From contig CACXMH010000010.1 in the NCBI GenBank assembly GCA_902768715.1, positions 1-49,460 on the forward strand: a DNA stretch of 49,460 nt, in the 5' to 3' direction. This DNA is from Fibrobacter succinogenes (lineage in GTDB: Bacteria; Fibrobacterota; Fibrobacteria; Fibrobacterales; Fibrobacteraceae). Shown here piece after piece: positions 1,322 to 6,290 of this stretch (its first letter is position 1; each line of letters begins with the position of its first letter). A model generated the notes under the pieces. The model had not been told where the DNA came from. It ran no database searches and saw only the letters and a program-made list of their open reading frames with translations. The translations under genes were made by a program, and so were the position numbers.

Positions 1322-2310
1322 TTACACATCAACCACTTCAGTCCAGCCGAACGGATCTTCGGCTTCGCCGAACTGGATAGCAGTGTACTTCGTGAAGAGT
1401 TCCGTGCAAACCGGGCCCGGATTCTTGCCGTCACCGTAGGTGAATTCCTTGCCGGCAACCGGATCCACAATCTTCTTGATCGGGGTAATCACGGCGGCGG
1501 TACCGCATTCGGCAGTTTCGCTGAATTCAGCGAGTTCTTCGAACGGGACCTGGCGGCGTTCCACGGTGTAGCCGAGGTATTCAGCAAGCTGCTGCAGACT
1601 CTTGTTCGTAATCGACGGCAGAATGGATTCGGACTTCGGGGTCACGTAGGTCTTGCCCTTGATGCCGAAGAAGTTTGCCGGACCGCACTGGAGTAACCGA
1701 GCTTCTTGGCTTCGGCGAGAGAGAGCAAGCTGGCAGCGTAGTTACCGCCGACCTTCACCGTACCCGTACCCTGGGGAGCGGCACGGTCGAAGTTGCGGCT
1801 GATCATCATATCGACAGGCTTGAAACCGTCCTTGAAGTACGGACCCACCGGAGTCACGAACATCAACAGCAGGTATTCGTCAGAGGGCTTCACGCCCACT
1901 TCCGGGCTCGTACCGATGAGAAGCGGACGGATGTAGAGCGTTGCACCGTAGCCGTAGGGCGGCACAAAGCGGGCATTGGCCTTCACCACGGTGTGAACCA
2001 TTTCGCGGAACAGCTCGACCGGCGGCACGGCCATGAGCACGCGGTTCGCGGTATTCTGCATGCGCTTCGCGTTTTCGTCAACGCGGAAGATACGGACCTT
2101 TCCGTCCTTGCCCGTGTAAGCCTTGAGGCCCTCGAAACCTTCCTGGCCATAATGCAAGCAAGTCGCGGCCATGTGGATGCTGATGTCCTTGGAAGAAGAA
2201 AGTTCGACCTTGCCCCACTTGCCATTGCGGTAGTAGCAGCGGACATTGTAATCGGTATCGTAATAACCGAAGGGGAGCGTCTTCCAATCGACAGTGTTCA
2301 AATCAAACAT
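1322..2310 (-). pseudogene. ilvE: Branched-chain amino-acid aminotransferase, broken by an internal deletion
   Basis: Two frames together encode a fold-type IV, IlvE group II aminotransferase (last step of Val, Leu and Ile synthesis). The 5' frame (1642-2310) starts MFDLNTVDWK and runs through the PLP-lysine region (TVKVGGNYA) to LGYSSA, then reads about 13 unrelated residues to a stop. The homologous sequence resumes in another frame as CGPANFFGIKGK and runs through TPKSESILPS to the stop at 1322. The join lies near 1685-1692. Intact relatives have about 15 more residues there (the YLDxxxxxYIEE stretch), so the lesion looks like a deletion of 3n+1 bases, roughly 43-46. The two parts add up to about 330 residues. 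Because the enzyme is normally needed for growth without amino acids, an assembly or sequencing error is a real alternative. SD AAAGG precedes the ATG at 2310. A GGTATCG/CGGTACC inverted repeat sits at 2346-2361 upstream. Confidence 0.8.
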
Positions 2311-2447: not shown

Positions 2448-2534
2448 TTACCCCAAGAGGATATACATCGCCAGGGTAAACATCACAAAGGCCGTGGCGG
2501 TAAGCGCAGACGGCACAAACTTTCTGTCTTTCAT
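2448..2534 (-). CDS. 28-residue single-pass membrane peptide
   Basis: An ATG at 2534 opens a 28-codon frame: a basic start (MKDRK) followed by a hydrophobic run (FVPSALTATAFVMF...AMYILLG), which predicts one transmembrane helix reaching almost to the C-terminus. An AAAGGAG Shine-Dalgarno at 2541-2547 sits 6 nt before the ATG. A near-consensus promoter (2575-2603) and a hairpin terminator (2380-2405) make this a complete single-gene unit in what would otherwise be a 350-bp gap. I do not recognise the family. Size and shape resemble small accessory subunits or regulatory micropeptides (CydX and KdpF are examples of the class, not homologues I can claim). The rest of the gap holds only these control elements and the ilvE leader. 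Confidence 0.6.
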   Translation of the reverse strand: MKDRKFVPSALTATAFVMFTLAMYILLG

Positions 2535-2603: not shown

Positions 2604-2663
2604 ATATATTGTTTCTATGCAATTGATAGAAATAATTTATGAACAAAAAAACATGTTTTGAAA

Positions 2664-3890
2664 TTAGTGTTTCCGCCGGCCAACAACCAGCCGCCAGCCG
2701 GCCAGGACCAGCGAGACCGTCGCCAGGGCGCACATTACCACCATCACTGACGAAATAGCGGTTTTCTCGAGCATAAGGGTGAAGGCCGTGCTCAAAAGCA
2801 GCGCACCTAATTTTTTTACGAAATTCAAGACCACCATATTGGACTGCCTCTTTATCGGGTCTTCCACCAAGAGCGATTCATTCTGGATTGCAGTCACGTA
2901 AGGATCGCGAACAAAAGATACGCCCAAATACCCCATCGAAAGCAAAAACAACGCAGGCACAGTCGGGCGGTGCACCCACGGTAAAACCTGAAACGCAAGC
3001 GAAGCCACGAGTATCAGCTGCATGCCCAAATAAAGCCATGGACCAAACCGGCTAAACAATTTCGACATCAAAGCATTCGAAAGAAAGCGAACCAGATAGA
3101 CCAGAAATGACACGACGCTAAGCAGTTTCATAGTCTGGTCGAGGTCAATCTTCAAAGTCAGGGCTTCCTGAAAATTGATACGGACATAAGAAAGTCCTAT
3201 GCCGGTCATGGCCGTCAAAAGCCCGAAGGAAACGAGAAGAGGAATGCCTAAAAACACCTTGTTCCGTTTAATTATTTGGGGTTTCTCGTCAGTTTGTTTT
3301 TCTTCAACAGTTCCGCAACAAGACGTTATCATAAAAGACAACAGAACGCCCAAGGCGCAAAAGATTATGCACCCGAACATAGGGAAATAGGGATTGCACG
3401 AAAAAAGAAACCCGCACAACAAAGATGAAAGCATCATCAACAGGCAGGCCATATTGTTGGCATCTGACTGGAATGCCACATATTCATTGTCCCTGCCGTC
3501 TTGAACCAGTTTTTCTTTAAGGAGAGCCGGCCCTAGCAAGTTGAAGGTAAAACCGATACATTTGGCAATTCCTCCTGCTATAACCACCCCATAATTCGGG
3601 GCAAAGGTAAAACACAGGGCCGACAGCAAGAAAAAGAGGCTGCCCAACTGAACCGACCGGCGTGTTCCCACGGCGTGAATACATTTGAGCAAGGGGTACT
3701 GGACGATTACGGAAAAGAGCAAGGAAAAGGAAATCAAAAAAGAAAACTGGGCAAAAGACACTCCCTTTACCGCATGGAGAAACATGACATCGCAGACGAC
3801 GAAAAACAAATGCTCCGCTTCCATGGCGTTTTGCCACGGGAAAAGCCTGTAGAACCTGCAAGAATATCGACTGCGTATTTTTTCTAGCAT
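2664..3890 (-). CDS. MFS-type transporter coupled to the adenylation-kinase gene
   Basis: 408 residues with about 12 hydrophobic segments and the overall layout of a major facilitator carrier: two six-helix halves separated by a charged cytoplasmic loop (around the EEKQTDEKPQIIKRNK stretch, near residue 200) and a basic C-terminus (GRRKH). Its ATG lies inside the last codons of the upstream gene (7-nt overlap, ATGCTAG) with no good SD of its own, so translation is probably coupled. Pairing with an adenylation-phosphotransferase fusion suggests it moves the substrate or product of that enzyme, most simply as an exporter; this is inference. The gene is visibly more AT-rich than the housekeeping genes around it, which fits horizontal acquisition. 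No substrate-specific motif was recognised. Confidence 0.8.
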   Translation of the reverse strand: MLEKIRSRYSCRFYRLFPWQNAMEAEHLFFVVCDVMFLHAVKGVSFAQFSFLISFSLLFSVIVQYPLLKCIHAVGTRRSVQLGSLFFLLSALCFTFAPNYGVVIAGGIAKCIGFTFNLLGPALLKEKLVQDGRDNEYVAFQSDANNMACLLMMLSSLLCGFLFSCNPYFPMFGCIIFCALGVLLSFMITSCCGTVEEKQTDEKPQIIKRNKVFLGIPLLVSFGLLTAMTGIGLSYVRINFQEALTLKIDLDQTMKLLSVVSFLVYLVRFLSNALMSKLFSRFGPWLYLGMQLILVASLAFQVLPWVHRPTVPALFLLSMGYLGVSFVRDPYVTAIQNESLLVEDPIKRQSNMVVLNFVKKLGALLLSTAFTLMLEKTAISSVMVVMCALATVSLVLAGWRLVVGRRKH

Positions 3891-6199
3891 AACTCACATG
3901 CCCAGCTGATACGCCCGGAACGACAGGACTTTTCGGAAAAATCGACCGCGATGGACTTGACCGACCGCAGCACAAGATCGTTAAAGGCACCCGGGAAAAG
4001 CACCGACGAGAGGCAAATCCTTGCCGCCAGAATTCCCTGCAACTGTCTCTTGGATTCTTCCAAGAATTTCACGTTATGGGAACAGGAATAGTAACCGATG
4101 AATTTTTCAAAAATATTTTCCGCCTCGCCTTTGGACACGCCTGTCCGCTCCCTATAGCTTTGGTCATCTTCGAAAGAGGGCAAAAAGACATAATGGGAAT
4201 ACATGCAGACCAGGTCAAATACCGGATGCCCCTTGCCACACATAGTAAAATCGATAAAGGTCACTCCGTTTTCGTTGAAGATAGCGTTTCCGGCATGGCA
4301 ATCCCCATGGACAAAGCCATCGCTATCGGGAATGCACCTGAACACATCGCAAATCTTTTCGATTTCCTGGTCGGAGAACTTGTCCTTGTGCAAACTTTTG
4401 ACAATGGATACAGACAATTCCTTCATGTCGGGCAAACTTGCGCCTTGCACCTTTATCTGGTGAATTTTCCTGACCGTTTCGGCATATCTTTTCAGTAATT
4501 CGTCGCGTCTCTGTGGGCACTTGAAAAGCAAAGACTCCAAGTTTTCTCCCTGCACATAGTCCATGATAATCCCGTAACGCTTTCGAGAATGCACGACATC
4601 GTAGGCTTCCGGAGAAGGAACGTTCATCTGATGCGCGAAACGAGTCCTTTCGTATTCCCCCTGGATAGTCGCAAAAGGGACGGATGCATGGAACAATTTC
4701 ATCACCTTGTCTTTCCCTAGCCCAAGAACTGTCGATGTCCGGCCCTTCCCAACGACAGGAAGTTTTGACGATTCTATCTTGTTCAATTCGCTCCAGTCCC
4801 CTTCTTCGGGCAATAGACCATGCCGATCAAGTTTTCCGGTTTCTAGAATTGGAAAACGGGGCAATCTGACAAAATTGGTGGGAACCATGTATTCGGGGAG
4901 AACCTTCATCAGTTTTTCTCTGGCAGACACCACATCGATATCCACATCGCCCGTATAAAAAACAACTACAGAAAAGATATCCTTATAGACAAAGCCCCGG
5001 ACTACCGGGTTTTCGATACCGCAAACTTCCGAAACCTGTTTCTCGATTTCTTCGGGTTCGACCCTGAAGCCCTGCACCTTGAACATCTCCGTAGATCGGC
5101 CGCAGATAACGAAACCCTTCTGTGTCAATTTTCCGGCATCGCCCGTATGGATAACGCCATCGCGAACAAGTTTTTTTGTTCCGCTTGGCTGGTGGAGATA
5201 TCCTCGAATATAGGGCGACTTGAAACAGAGTTCGCCTTCTTCTTGGCCTGCGCACGTGCCATCTTCGTTCAGCACGACCAACTCGGCATCCGACTCGGGA
5301 AACCCTACCGGAGCAGGAGTCTCCGGGCGGCTCAATTTGTGGACCGCAAGAAAGCAGCCCGACTCTGTAGAAGCATAGACATTGTAATTCTCGGCTCCTT
5401 CCACAAACAAGCCGTCGGCGGGTTCGCTAGAAATGATGCACAGCCTCCAGGGCAGCTTCAAGGACGGATGCTTTCGCAAAAAAGCGGGCGTCACGTAACC
5501 GCAGTTGACACGGTTCTGCGCCAAGTATTCCAGGAACTTTTCTTCGGTTTCTCCATACCCGTACGGCATAATGGCGATGGGTATCCCAACATCGACCGTC
5601 ATGGCAAAGACAATGGGGAACGAAACGAAATTCAGGGGACTCATCAAGAGGAAAACATCCCCAGGTTGCAAAAGGGGGCTTCCTTGATATCGGGTCGATT
5701 TCCCTACATTTTCAAGGGAACCGTATTCATGGAGTACGCCCTTGGGCATTCCAGAAGTTCCAGAAGTGTAAGCGATGTAACAAAGGCTGTGCAGATTCTC
5801 GGGAACAAATCCGTCCATGGAGTCTGTTGCAAGGATTTCCAGAAAAGCCTTCTCGTCCACATACTCCCTGCATTGGCAGTCGTGCCGGATAAAGGCCGTC
5901 CTCTGCGTGCTATTGTCCGTTTCGGTAAGCACAAAGGCCGCCCCCGCACGCATAGTCCCTACGATGGCGGCATAAAGGTCAAGTCCCCTAGGCAGGCAGT
6001 ACATGACCGTATCTTCGGGGCCGATGCCCCTTTTCTTGAGATAGGCATAAATCTTGCCCGAAAGATTCCAGAGGCTACCATAAGTAAGGCTCTCTTTCGG
6101 CTCATACAAGGCCGCGGGCCTCTCCGGAAAAAAGCGGGCAAGGTATTCCAGTTTTTCAAGAATTGTACAATCCGAATACTCCACAGTGCCAATATACAC
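3884..6199 (-). CDS. Adenylation (AMP-binding) domain fused to APH-like kinase
   Basis: 771 residues with two enzymes in one chain. Residues about 10-470 form an ANL-superfamily adenylation domain: P-loop YTSGTSGMPKG (144-154), YASTES (275-280), TGD (352-354), the hinge region RSTEMFKVQGFRVEPEEIE, and the C-terminal lysine in ETGKLDR (K456). No carrier-protein domain with its Ser follows. Residues about 480-755 are a phosphotransferase of the APH/choline-kinase fold: HGDCHAGN (catalytic D633, N638), FIDF (metal ligand D650) and an N-lobe lysine near KVMKLF. The kinase half resembles the Fibrobacter paralogous family TIGR02172. Where amino-acid-activating NRPS domains keep an Asp in core A4, the region reads NFVSF, so an alpha-amino acid substrate is doubtful. 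The start is GTG at 6199 (SD-like AGGA upstream). The MFS gene overlaps its end. Predicted role: activate an acid as acyl-AMP and phosphorylate the same or a related small molecule. The substrate is unknown. Confidence 0.85.
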   Translation of the reverse strand: MYIGTVEYSDCTILEKLEYLARFFPERPAALYEPKESLTYGSLWNLSGKIYAYLKKRGIGPEDTVMYCLPRGLDLYAAIVGTMRAGAAFVLTETDNSTQRTAFIRHDCQCREYVDEKAFLEILATDSMDGFVPENLHSLCYIAYTSGTSGMPKGVLHEYGSLENVGKSTRYQGSPLLQPGDVFLLMSPLNFVSFPIVFAMTVDVGIPIAIMPYGYGETEEKFLEYLAQNRVNCGYVTPAFLRKHPSLKLPWRLCIISSEPADGLFVEGAENYNVYASTESGCFLAVHKLSRPETPAPVGFPESDAELVVLNEDGTCAGQEEGELCFKSPYIRGYLHQPSGTKKLVRDGVIHTGDAGKLTQKGFVICGRSTEMFKVQGFRVEPEEIEKQVSEVCGIENPVVRGFVYKDIFSVVVFYTGDVDIDVVSAREKLMKVLPEYMVPTNFVRLPRFPILETGKLDRHGLLPEEGDWSELNKIESSKLPVVGKGRTSTVLGLGKDKVMKLFHASVPFATIQGEYERTRFAHQMNVPSPEAYDVVHSRKRYGIIMDYVQGENLESLLFKCPQRRDELLKRYAETVRKIHQIKVQGASLPDMKELSVSIVKSLHKDKFSDQEIEKICDVFRCIPDSDGFVHGDCHAGNAIFNENGVTFIDFTMCGKGHPVFDLVCMYSHYVFLPSFEDDQSYRERTGVSKGEAENIFEKFIGYYSCSHNVKFLEESKRQLQGILAARICLSSVLFPGAFNDLVLRSVKSIAVDFSEKSCRSGRISWACELC

Positions 6200-6290
6200 T
6201 TTTCCTGCATTTCCTGGGCTCTGGACCCTACCTTCTACCCCCTAAAAAAACTATCTTTGGCCTCGGAAATTTTTCAACAGGACCAAGGTC

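Follow-up and report, generated by a model that had tools for sequence, protein, structure and literature searches.

We found that a 49,460-nucleotide stretch of Fibrobacter succinogenes DNA (hereafter the window; contig 10 of a 2.84-Mb assembly) contains a gene in which a nonribosomal peptide synthetase (NRPS)-type adenylation (A) domain is fused to an APH-fold kinase, and that this gene, together with the major facilitator superfamily (MFS) transporter gene overlapping its end, is a horizontally exchanged, strain-variable cargo at a chromosomal hotspot. The fusion is a new combination of domains from two well-known families, with a putative function. The original prediction, made from the DNA letters, had named no characterised system with this arrangement, and none was found here, nor was any paper on an A-domain/APH fusion found in the literature.

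Both halves of the chain were recognised well above the Pfam cut-offs, AMP-binding (PF00501) at residues 21-334 with 131.7 bits (cut-off 29.9) and APH (PF01636) at residues 496-672 with 84.5 bits (cut-off 23.2). These were the only two Pfam domains above cut-off, and neither a PP-binding (carrier) nor a Condensation domain was present in the fusion chain. The A half has the P-loop, the A5-A8 motifs and the A10 catalytic lysine of the ANL superfamily, and in an alignment of 15 A domains the P-loop (residues 144-154), K456, D354, R368, K374 and G377 were invariant or nearly so, with positions 144-147, 152-154, E279, D354, R368, K374 and K456 invariant. Its best NCBIfam match was TIGR01733 (amino-acid adenylation domain), at 150.5 bits under the curated cut-off of 317.4. 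An AlphaFold 2 (AF2) model gave per-residue confidence values (pLDDT) mostly of 75-97 over residues 10-450, and the best Foldseek matches of the A half were the NRPS A domains LgrA, SyAstC and GrsA; both in sequence and in fold, NRPS A domains are the best fit.

The kinase half showed the HGDxxxxN loop, the metal-binding Asp, the ATP-binding Lys and the fold of the APH family, these residues being invariant or nearly so, and H631, D633, N638 and D650 were invariant across 14 related kinases. Its score against TIGR02172 was 88.9 bits, under the family cut-off of 228.2. In a full-length structure model the kinase half had pLDDT values mostly below 50, because only three fusions contribute to the alignment there; modelled alone with AF2 it reached a pLDDT of 90.2 and a predicted template modelling score (pTM) of 0.88, and it matched APH(3')-Ia with a VIA Z of 18.7 and 4.4 A over 234 residues, with small-molecule kinases across the whole match list. 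Taken together, the open reading frame, the Pfam scores and the two alignments confirmed the 771-residue chain and domain order that had been predicted, with the catalytic residues (P-loop, K456, D633, N638 and D650) intact at the expected places and no carrier domain. The coordinates are collected in Table 1.

Table 1. Coordinates in the window of the fusion gene, its domains and motifs, the MFS gene and the cassette.
Feature	Position	Strand	Remarks
Fusion gene, NRPS-type A domain plus APH-fold kinase	3884..6199	minus	771 aa, P0001
A domain, residues 1-462	4814..6199	minus	PF00501 at residues 21-334 plus C-terminal subdomain
ATP-binding loop YTSGTSGMPKG, residues 144-154	5738..5770	minus	invariant positions in alignment
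Catalytic lysine K456 (motif A10)	4832..4834	minus	invariant; aligns with GrsA K517
APH-fold kinase domain, residues 463-771	3887..4813	minus	PF01636, AF2 model, structure match
Kinase catalytic loop HGDCHAGN, residues 631-638	4286..4309	minus	H, G, D and N invariant
Metal-binding Asp D650 of kinase (IDF)	4250..4252	minus	invariant
MFS transporter gene, 408 aa	2664..3890	minus	MFS_1 41.1 bits, cut-off 33.4
Cassette extent	about 2662..6250		flanks on either side match G006, with a CRISPR-Cas12a locus between these junctions

The fusion gene was found at full length in three of 80 Fibrobacter genomes (G000, G015 and G056; 87-88% identity to the window copy), and its start codon is GTG in the window copy and ATG in the two relatives. 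The MFS gene was present in all three genomes and begins just ahead of the fusion stop codon, so that the previously noticed 7-nt overlap (ATGCTAG) is kept identically in all three loci. Outside those three genomes the fusion was found neither among 168 Fibrobacterota genomes nor in a scan of genome contigs that reaches close relatives only, nor in phages (50,697 records) or viral contigs, and in a search of 72,556 plasmid records none of the 1,460 matching records reached 80% coverage. Likewise, the MFS protein was present solely in the three fusion-bearing genomes, without any other relative among the 168 Fibrobacterota genomes, and it had no NCBIfam, PDB, plasmid or viral-contig match. Both halves of the fusion are under purifying selection: dN/dS (omega) was about 0.13-0.14 in the A half and in the kinase half alike (G000 versus G015 and G056), and as omega is equal in the two, both activities appear to matter. 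An assembly error or chimera was rejected on the grounds of three genomes with equal length and overlap, and a pseudogene or decayed half on the grounds of an omega of about 0.13 in each half. The original prediction had named misassembled separate genes and catalytic loss as outcomes that would speak against it; the gene is full-length in three genomes, with both sets of catalytic residues kept.

The cassette consists of exactly the fusion gene and the MFS gene, and it has ilvE on one side and an aminotransferase gene (PRK08637) on the other. Some relatives have an empty site here: in genome G003 a gap of about 255 bp, without cargo, separates the two flanking genes, and the flank matches reach window position 2396 and restart at 6238. 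In the sister genome G006 the flank matches reach position 2661 and restart at 6251, and the cargo (L137:4769-15989) comprises two genes called ORF6N-like on visual inspection of the encoded N-termini, Cas12a, a 210-aa open reading frame (ORF), Cas1 pieces, Cas2 and a repeat array. The hotspot holds a YhcG-type nuclease in G048, an ORF6N protein in G049, type I restriction-like genes in G014 and lipoproteins or large surface proteins in other genomes (labels by eye). No cassette remnants were found in the sister genomes, and no RNA families were found within the first 10 kb of the window. Synonymous divergence (dS) between G000 and G056 reached 0.51 in the fusion and 0.32 in the MFS gene, compared with 0.15 and 0.21 for the flanking genes and 0.20, at a similar GC content of third codon positions (GC3), for a gene elsewhere in these genomes that encodes an A domain followed by carrier (T) and condensation (C) domains (A-T-C); the range given for the flanks and this resident A-T-C gene is 0.13-0.21. 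The raised dS points to exchange of the cassette between lineages. Acquisition had originally been suggested from AT-richness; the suggestion is now upheld by the empty site, the alternative cargo at one spot and the excess dS, while the AT-richness is real (GC of 0.48-0.50 in the cassette genes against 0.57-0.58 in their neighbours) but says little alone, and it was dropped as proof of acquisition because several other window genes are equally AT-rich. The site indicates that putative small-molecule cassettes and CRISPR-Cas12a are able to alternate at one chromosomal position.

The closest genomic relatives of the A half were Fibrobacter A-T-C proteins of 940-1013 aa, with 28-36% identity over residues 13-465; their AMP-binding, PP-binding and Condensation domains were all found by Pfam in eight relatives. 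These proteins (for example, L013, L041 and L052) have the A3-A10 motifs in common with the fusion and, like it, lack the Asp of motif A4, but where they carry T and C domains and have MATE, SpoIIE and STAS neighbours, the fusion has the APH kinase and the MFS gene instead. In a phylogenetic tree the fusions formed one clade (100/100) among the A-T-C lineages, without a firm sister lineage and with long-branch warnings. For the kinase half, the nearest relatives were two STAS-APH proteins, L092 (397 aa) and L057 (417 aa); these and the Fibrobacter TIGR02172 kinases are 21-28% identical to it and have identical catalytic residues, but lack an A domain. Overall, the fusion looks like an A-T-C-family A domain with its T-C tail swapped for a Fibrobacter-type kinase, an order of events that we infer from these relationships.

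The A4 region of the fusion reads PLNFVSF and thus has no Asp to make the alpha-amino contact of amino-acid adenylation domains; when aligned with GrsA the Asp position is Val, and it is Asn when the alignment is shifted by two. An aliphatic residue at this position is reported in domains for alpha-hydroxy acids (Ala, Gly) and alpha-keto acids (Ile), and the aryl-acid domain DhbE has Asn there (PMC11253843). However, the McyG domain that activates Phe, a hydrophobic amino acid, has Val at the same position (PMC11253843), and therefore a missing A4 Asp does not exclude alpha-amino acids. The earlier argument that NFVSF speaks against an alpha-amino acid substrate thus stands as to the missing Asp, which would fit hydroxy or keto acids, but it is weakened by the McyG counterexample and by the fact that the trait belongs to the whole A-T-C lineage (A4 Asp in 0 of 12 relatives outside the three fusions), and as an argument against alpha-amino acids it is suggestive only. 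At pocket positions 322 and 331, G000 differs from the other two fusions, so the substrate may vary.

Our favoured interpretation, which we hold tentatively and at somewhat less than even confidence, is that the cassette makes and exports a phosphorylated specialised metabolite from a non-standard carboxylic acid, such as a hydroxy acid, which would be activated and passed on to an acceptor. In this scheme the acid adenylated by the A domain would be of a hydroxy, keto, aryl or hydrophobic type, its alpha substituent lacking the contact that Asp usually makes. The acceptor of the acyl group would lie outside the protein and might be CoA, a carrier in trans, or a small alcohol or amine. The APH-type domain would phosphorylate a hydroxyl on the acyl product or on its acceptor, and the co-translated MFS protein would carry the phosphorylated product out. 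We infer the substrate class, the acceptor, the reaction order, the export direction and the biological role alike. With a hydroxy acid as substrate, the kinase would have a group to act on, and the joining of the halves would be explained. In levulinate catabolism of Pseudomonas putida, the acid-activating ANL ligase LvaE and the kinase LvaA work on one acyl chain (PMC11342911, PMC12440821), and in ACAD10 and ACAD11 a kinase domain of related broad kind is fused to an acyl-CoA dehydrogenase (PMC12440821); both cases show hydroxyl phosphorylation on activated acyl chains by kinases of this broad kind (PMC11342911, PMC12440821). LvaE/LvaA resembles the fusion in pairing an acid-activating ligase with a small-molecule kinase (PMC11342911), but differs in being separate proteins, of the CoA ligase type and with an acyl-CoA dehydrogenase partner, while ACAD10 and ACAD11 likewise join a kinase to an acyl-chain enzyme, the partner being the acyl-CoA dehydrogenase rather than an A domain. 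A further precedent comes from APH-fold kinases acting on peptide-type antibiotics: ComG inactivates corramycin, a modified peptide antibiotic (PMC10996006). ComG and the amicoumacin kinase AmiN are stand-alone resistance kinases without an A domain, and their sequence matches to the kinase half were weak (E of 0.1-0.5) and not significant.

Several observations weigh against our interpretation. The chain and its neighbours lack an acceptor or carrier domain, the usual recipient of the product of an NRPS-type A domain; the transporter is the only biosynthesis-type neighbour, and it has no recognisable subfamily, its transport direction being a guess; the structural matches of the APH half point to no particular substrate; and the presumed substrate link between the halves comes from their fusion. 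Four carrier domains are encoded elsewhere in the genome, on contigs C7 (one) and C58 (two) and, within the A-T-C protein, on C24. The term "self-contained", used for this module in the original prediction, is open to doubt, as T and C domains are built into the nearest relatives of the fusion, the fusion itself is without that usual acyl acceptor, and the carriers lie elsewhere in the genome. Nor did the suggested role in signalling, defence or self-protection find support, the PADLOC models of known anti-phage defence matching neither the fusion nor the MFS protein. The fuller claim, that adenylation and phosphorylation of the product in one chain represent a new bifunctional class, arisen through a kinase replacing the A-T-C carrier and condensation domains and yielding a new phosphorylated signalling or competition molecule, seems doubtful to us. 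If the halves do act in sequence, a single chain with a dedicated transporter would both activate and phosphorylate, offering a compact substitute for assembly on carriers, and the small size of the protein would suit it to direct biochemistry and heterologous expression.

Alternatively, the fusion may be a trans-acting tailoring enzyme, in which the acid is loaded onto a carrier encoded elsewhere (the T domain within the resident A-T-C protein would be one candidate) and the product, carrier-bound or released, is phosphorylated by the kinase. The four carriers noted above, the NRPS-type A domain that falls among the A-T-C lineages and the presence of an A-T-C locus in all three fusion genomes (L041, L042 and L043) are consistent with this, but we consider it unlikely: G007, G048 and G049 hold an A-T-C locus without the fusion, so that kinship accounts for the co-occurrence, the A-T-C protein already includes an A domain, the cassette has no carrier gene, and no docking element came up, though none was searched for. 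A kinase with MFS efflux is also a common resistance pairing, and the cassette might serve detoxification, the kinase (perhaps also acylation) inactivating a toxic small molecule of competitors and the MFS protein expelling it. The A domain would be unusual as a modifying enzyme, yet it is equally conserved, and related kinases occur widely across Fibrobacter outside any such context; while the APH fold is typical of antibiotic kinases and the hotspot of relatives holds competition-related cargo (Cas12a, the YhcG-type nuclease and restriction-like genes), lipoproteins and surface proteins are also found there, so position says little. Detoxification is, in our estimate, an improbable role.

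A catabolic module like LvaE/LvaA, in which a 4-hydroxy acid is activated to a thioester and its hydroxyl is phosphorylated for elimination, would have the equivalent ligase and kinase pairing of P. putida and the ACAD10/11 kinase-dehydrogenase fusion as precedents (PMC11342911, PMC12440821). We regard it as very unlikely, since the A half is of the NRPS type and not an acyl-CoA synthetase, and an acyl-CoA dehydrogenase is absent from the cassette, the only match in the genome lying on contig C66. The target of the kinase half might instead be a protein (a STAS anti-sigma antagonist, for example), so that substrate sensing by the A domain would be coupled to a partner switch beside the A-T-C genes. 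The STAS-APH fusions are the nearest kinase relatives, and SpoIIE phosphatase, STAS and MATE genes accompany A-T-C genes; however, the cassette has no STAS or SpoIIE gene, APH folds act mostly on small molecules, and related kinases also exist without STAS, which together make such a regulatory device highly improbable.

The cassette also draws attention to a broader theme in Fibrobacter, apparently not described before, in which A-T-C proteins are linked to MATE transporters and SpoIIE/STAS partner-switch genes, and it may be a stripped-down offshoot of that theme. A-T-C genes adjoin MATE and SpoIIE-type phosphatase genes, and several also adjoin STAS and pyridoxal phosphate (PLP)-enzyme genes, both in Fibrobacter and in a second genus of its family; the conserved module is exemplified by L045:6035-12187, L052:6921-15673 and L093:7384-13389. 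No paper on NRPS genes with SpoIIE, STAS and MATE was found in the literature. The MATE proteins of the module have a conserved tail of about 120 residues, which may be a degenerate RsbW-like ATPase: weak HATPase-like Pfam matches were obtained in 2 of 10 members (best E of 0.006), and PDB gave no support. The STAS-APH genes, located at L057:9022-10275 (minus strand; Pfam) and L092:7497-8690 (minus strand; BLAST), join a STAS domain to an APH-fold kinase, which is an unusual pairing for a partner-switch domain. Relatives of the kinase half are also encoded in tandem, as pairs of APH-fold kinase genes, at L098:8276-9993 and L108:9036-10753.

Two further observations concern the flank of the cassette. 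In the window, ilvE (1322-2310, minus strand) is split by a frameshift into 222 and 107 aa, while it is intact (343 aa) in G056, G003 and G006; the split could be an artefact of assembly or sequencing, or the gene may have been lost recently. Between ilvE and the cassette lies an ORF of 28 residues (2448-2534, minus strand), which is 100% identical in G056 and G006 and 96% identical in G015, and which is resident, because it also flanks the Cas12a cargo in G006. This ORF is preceded by a near-consensus promoter (TTGACA-17-TATATT at 2603-2575) and resembles the lipoprotein signal-peptide start in L104 and L111.

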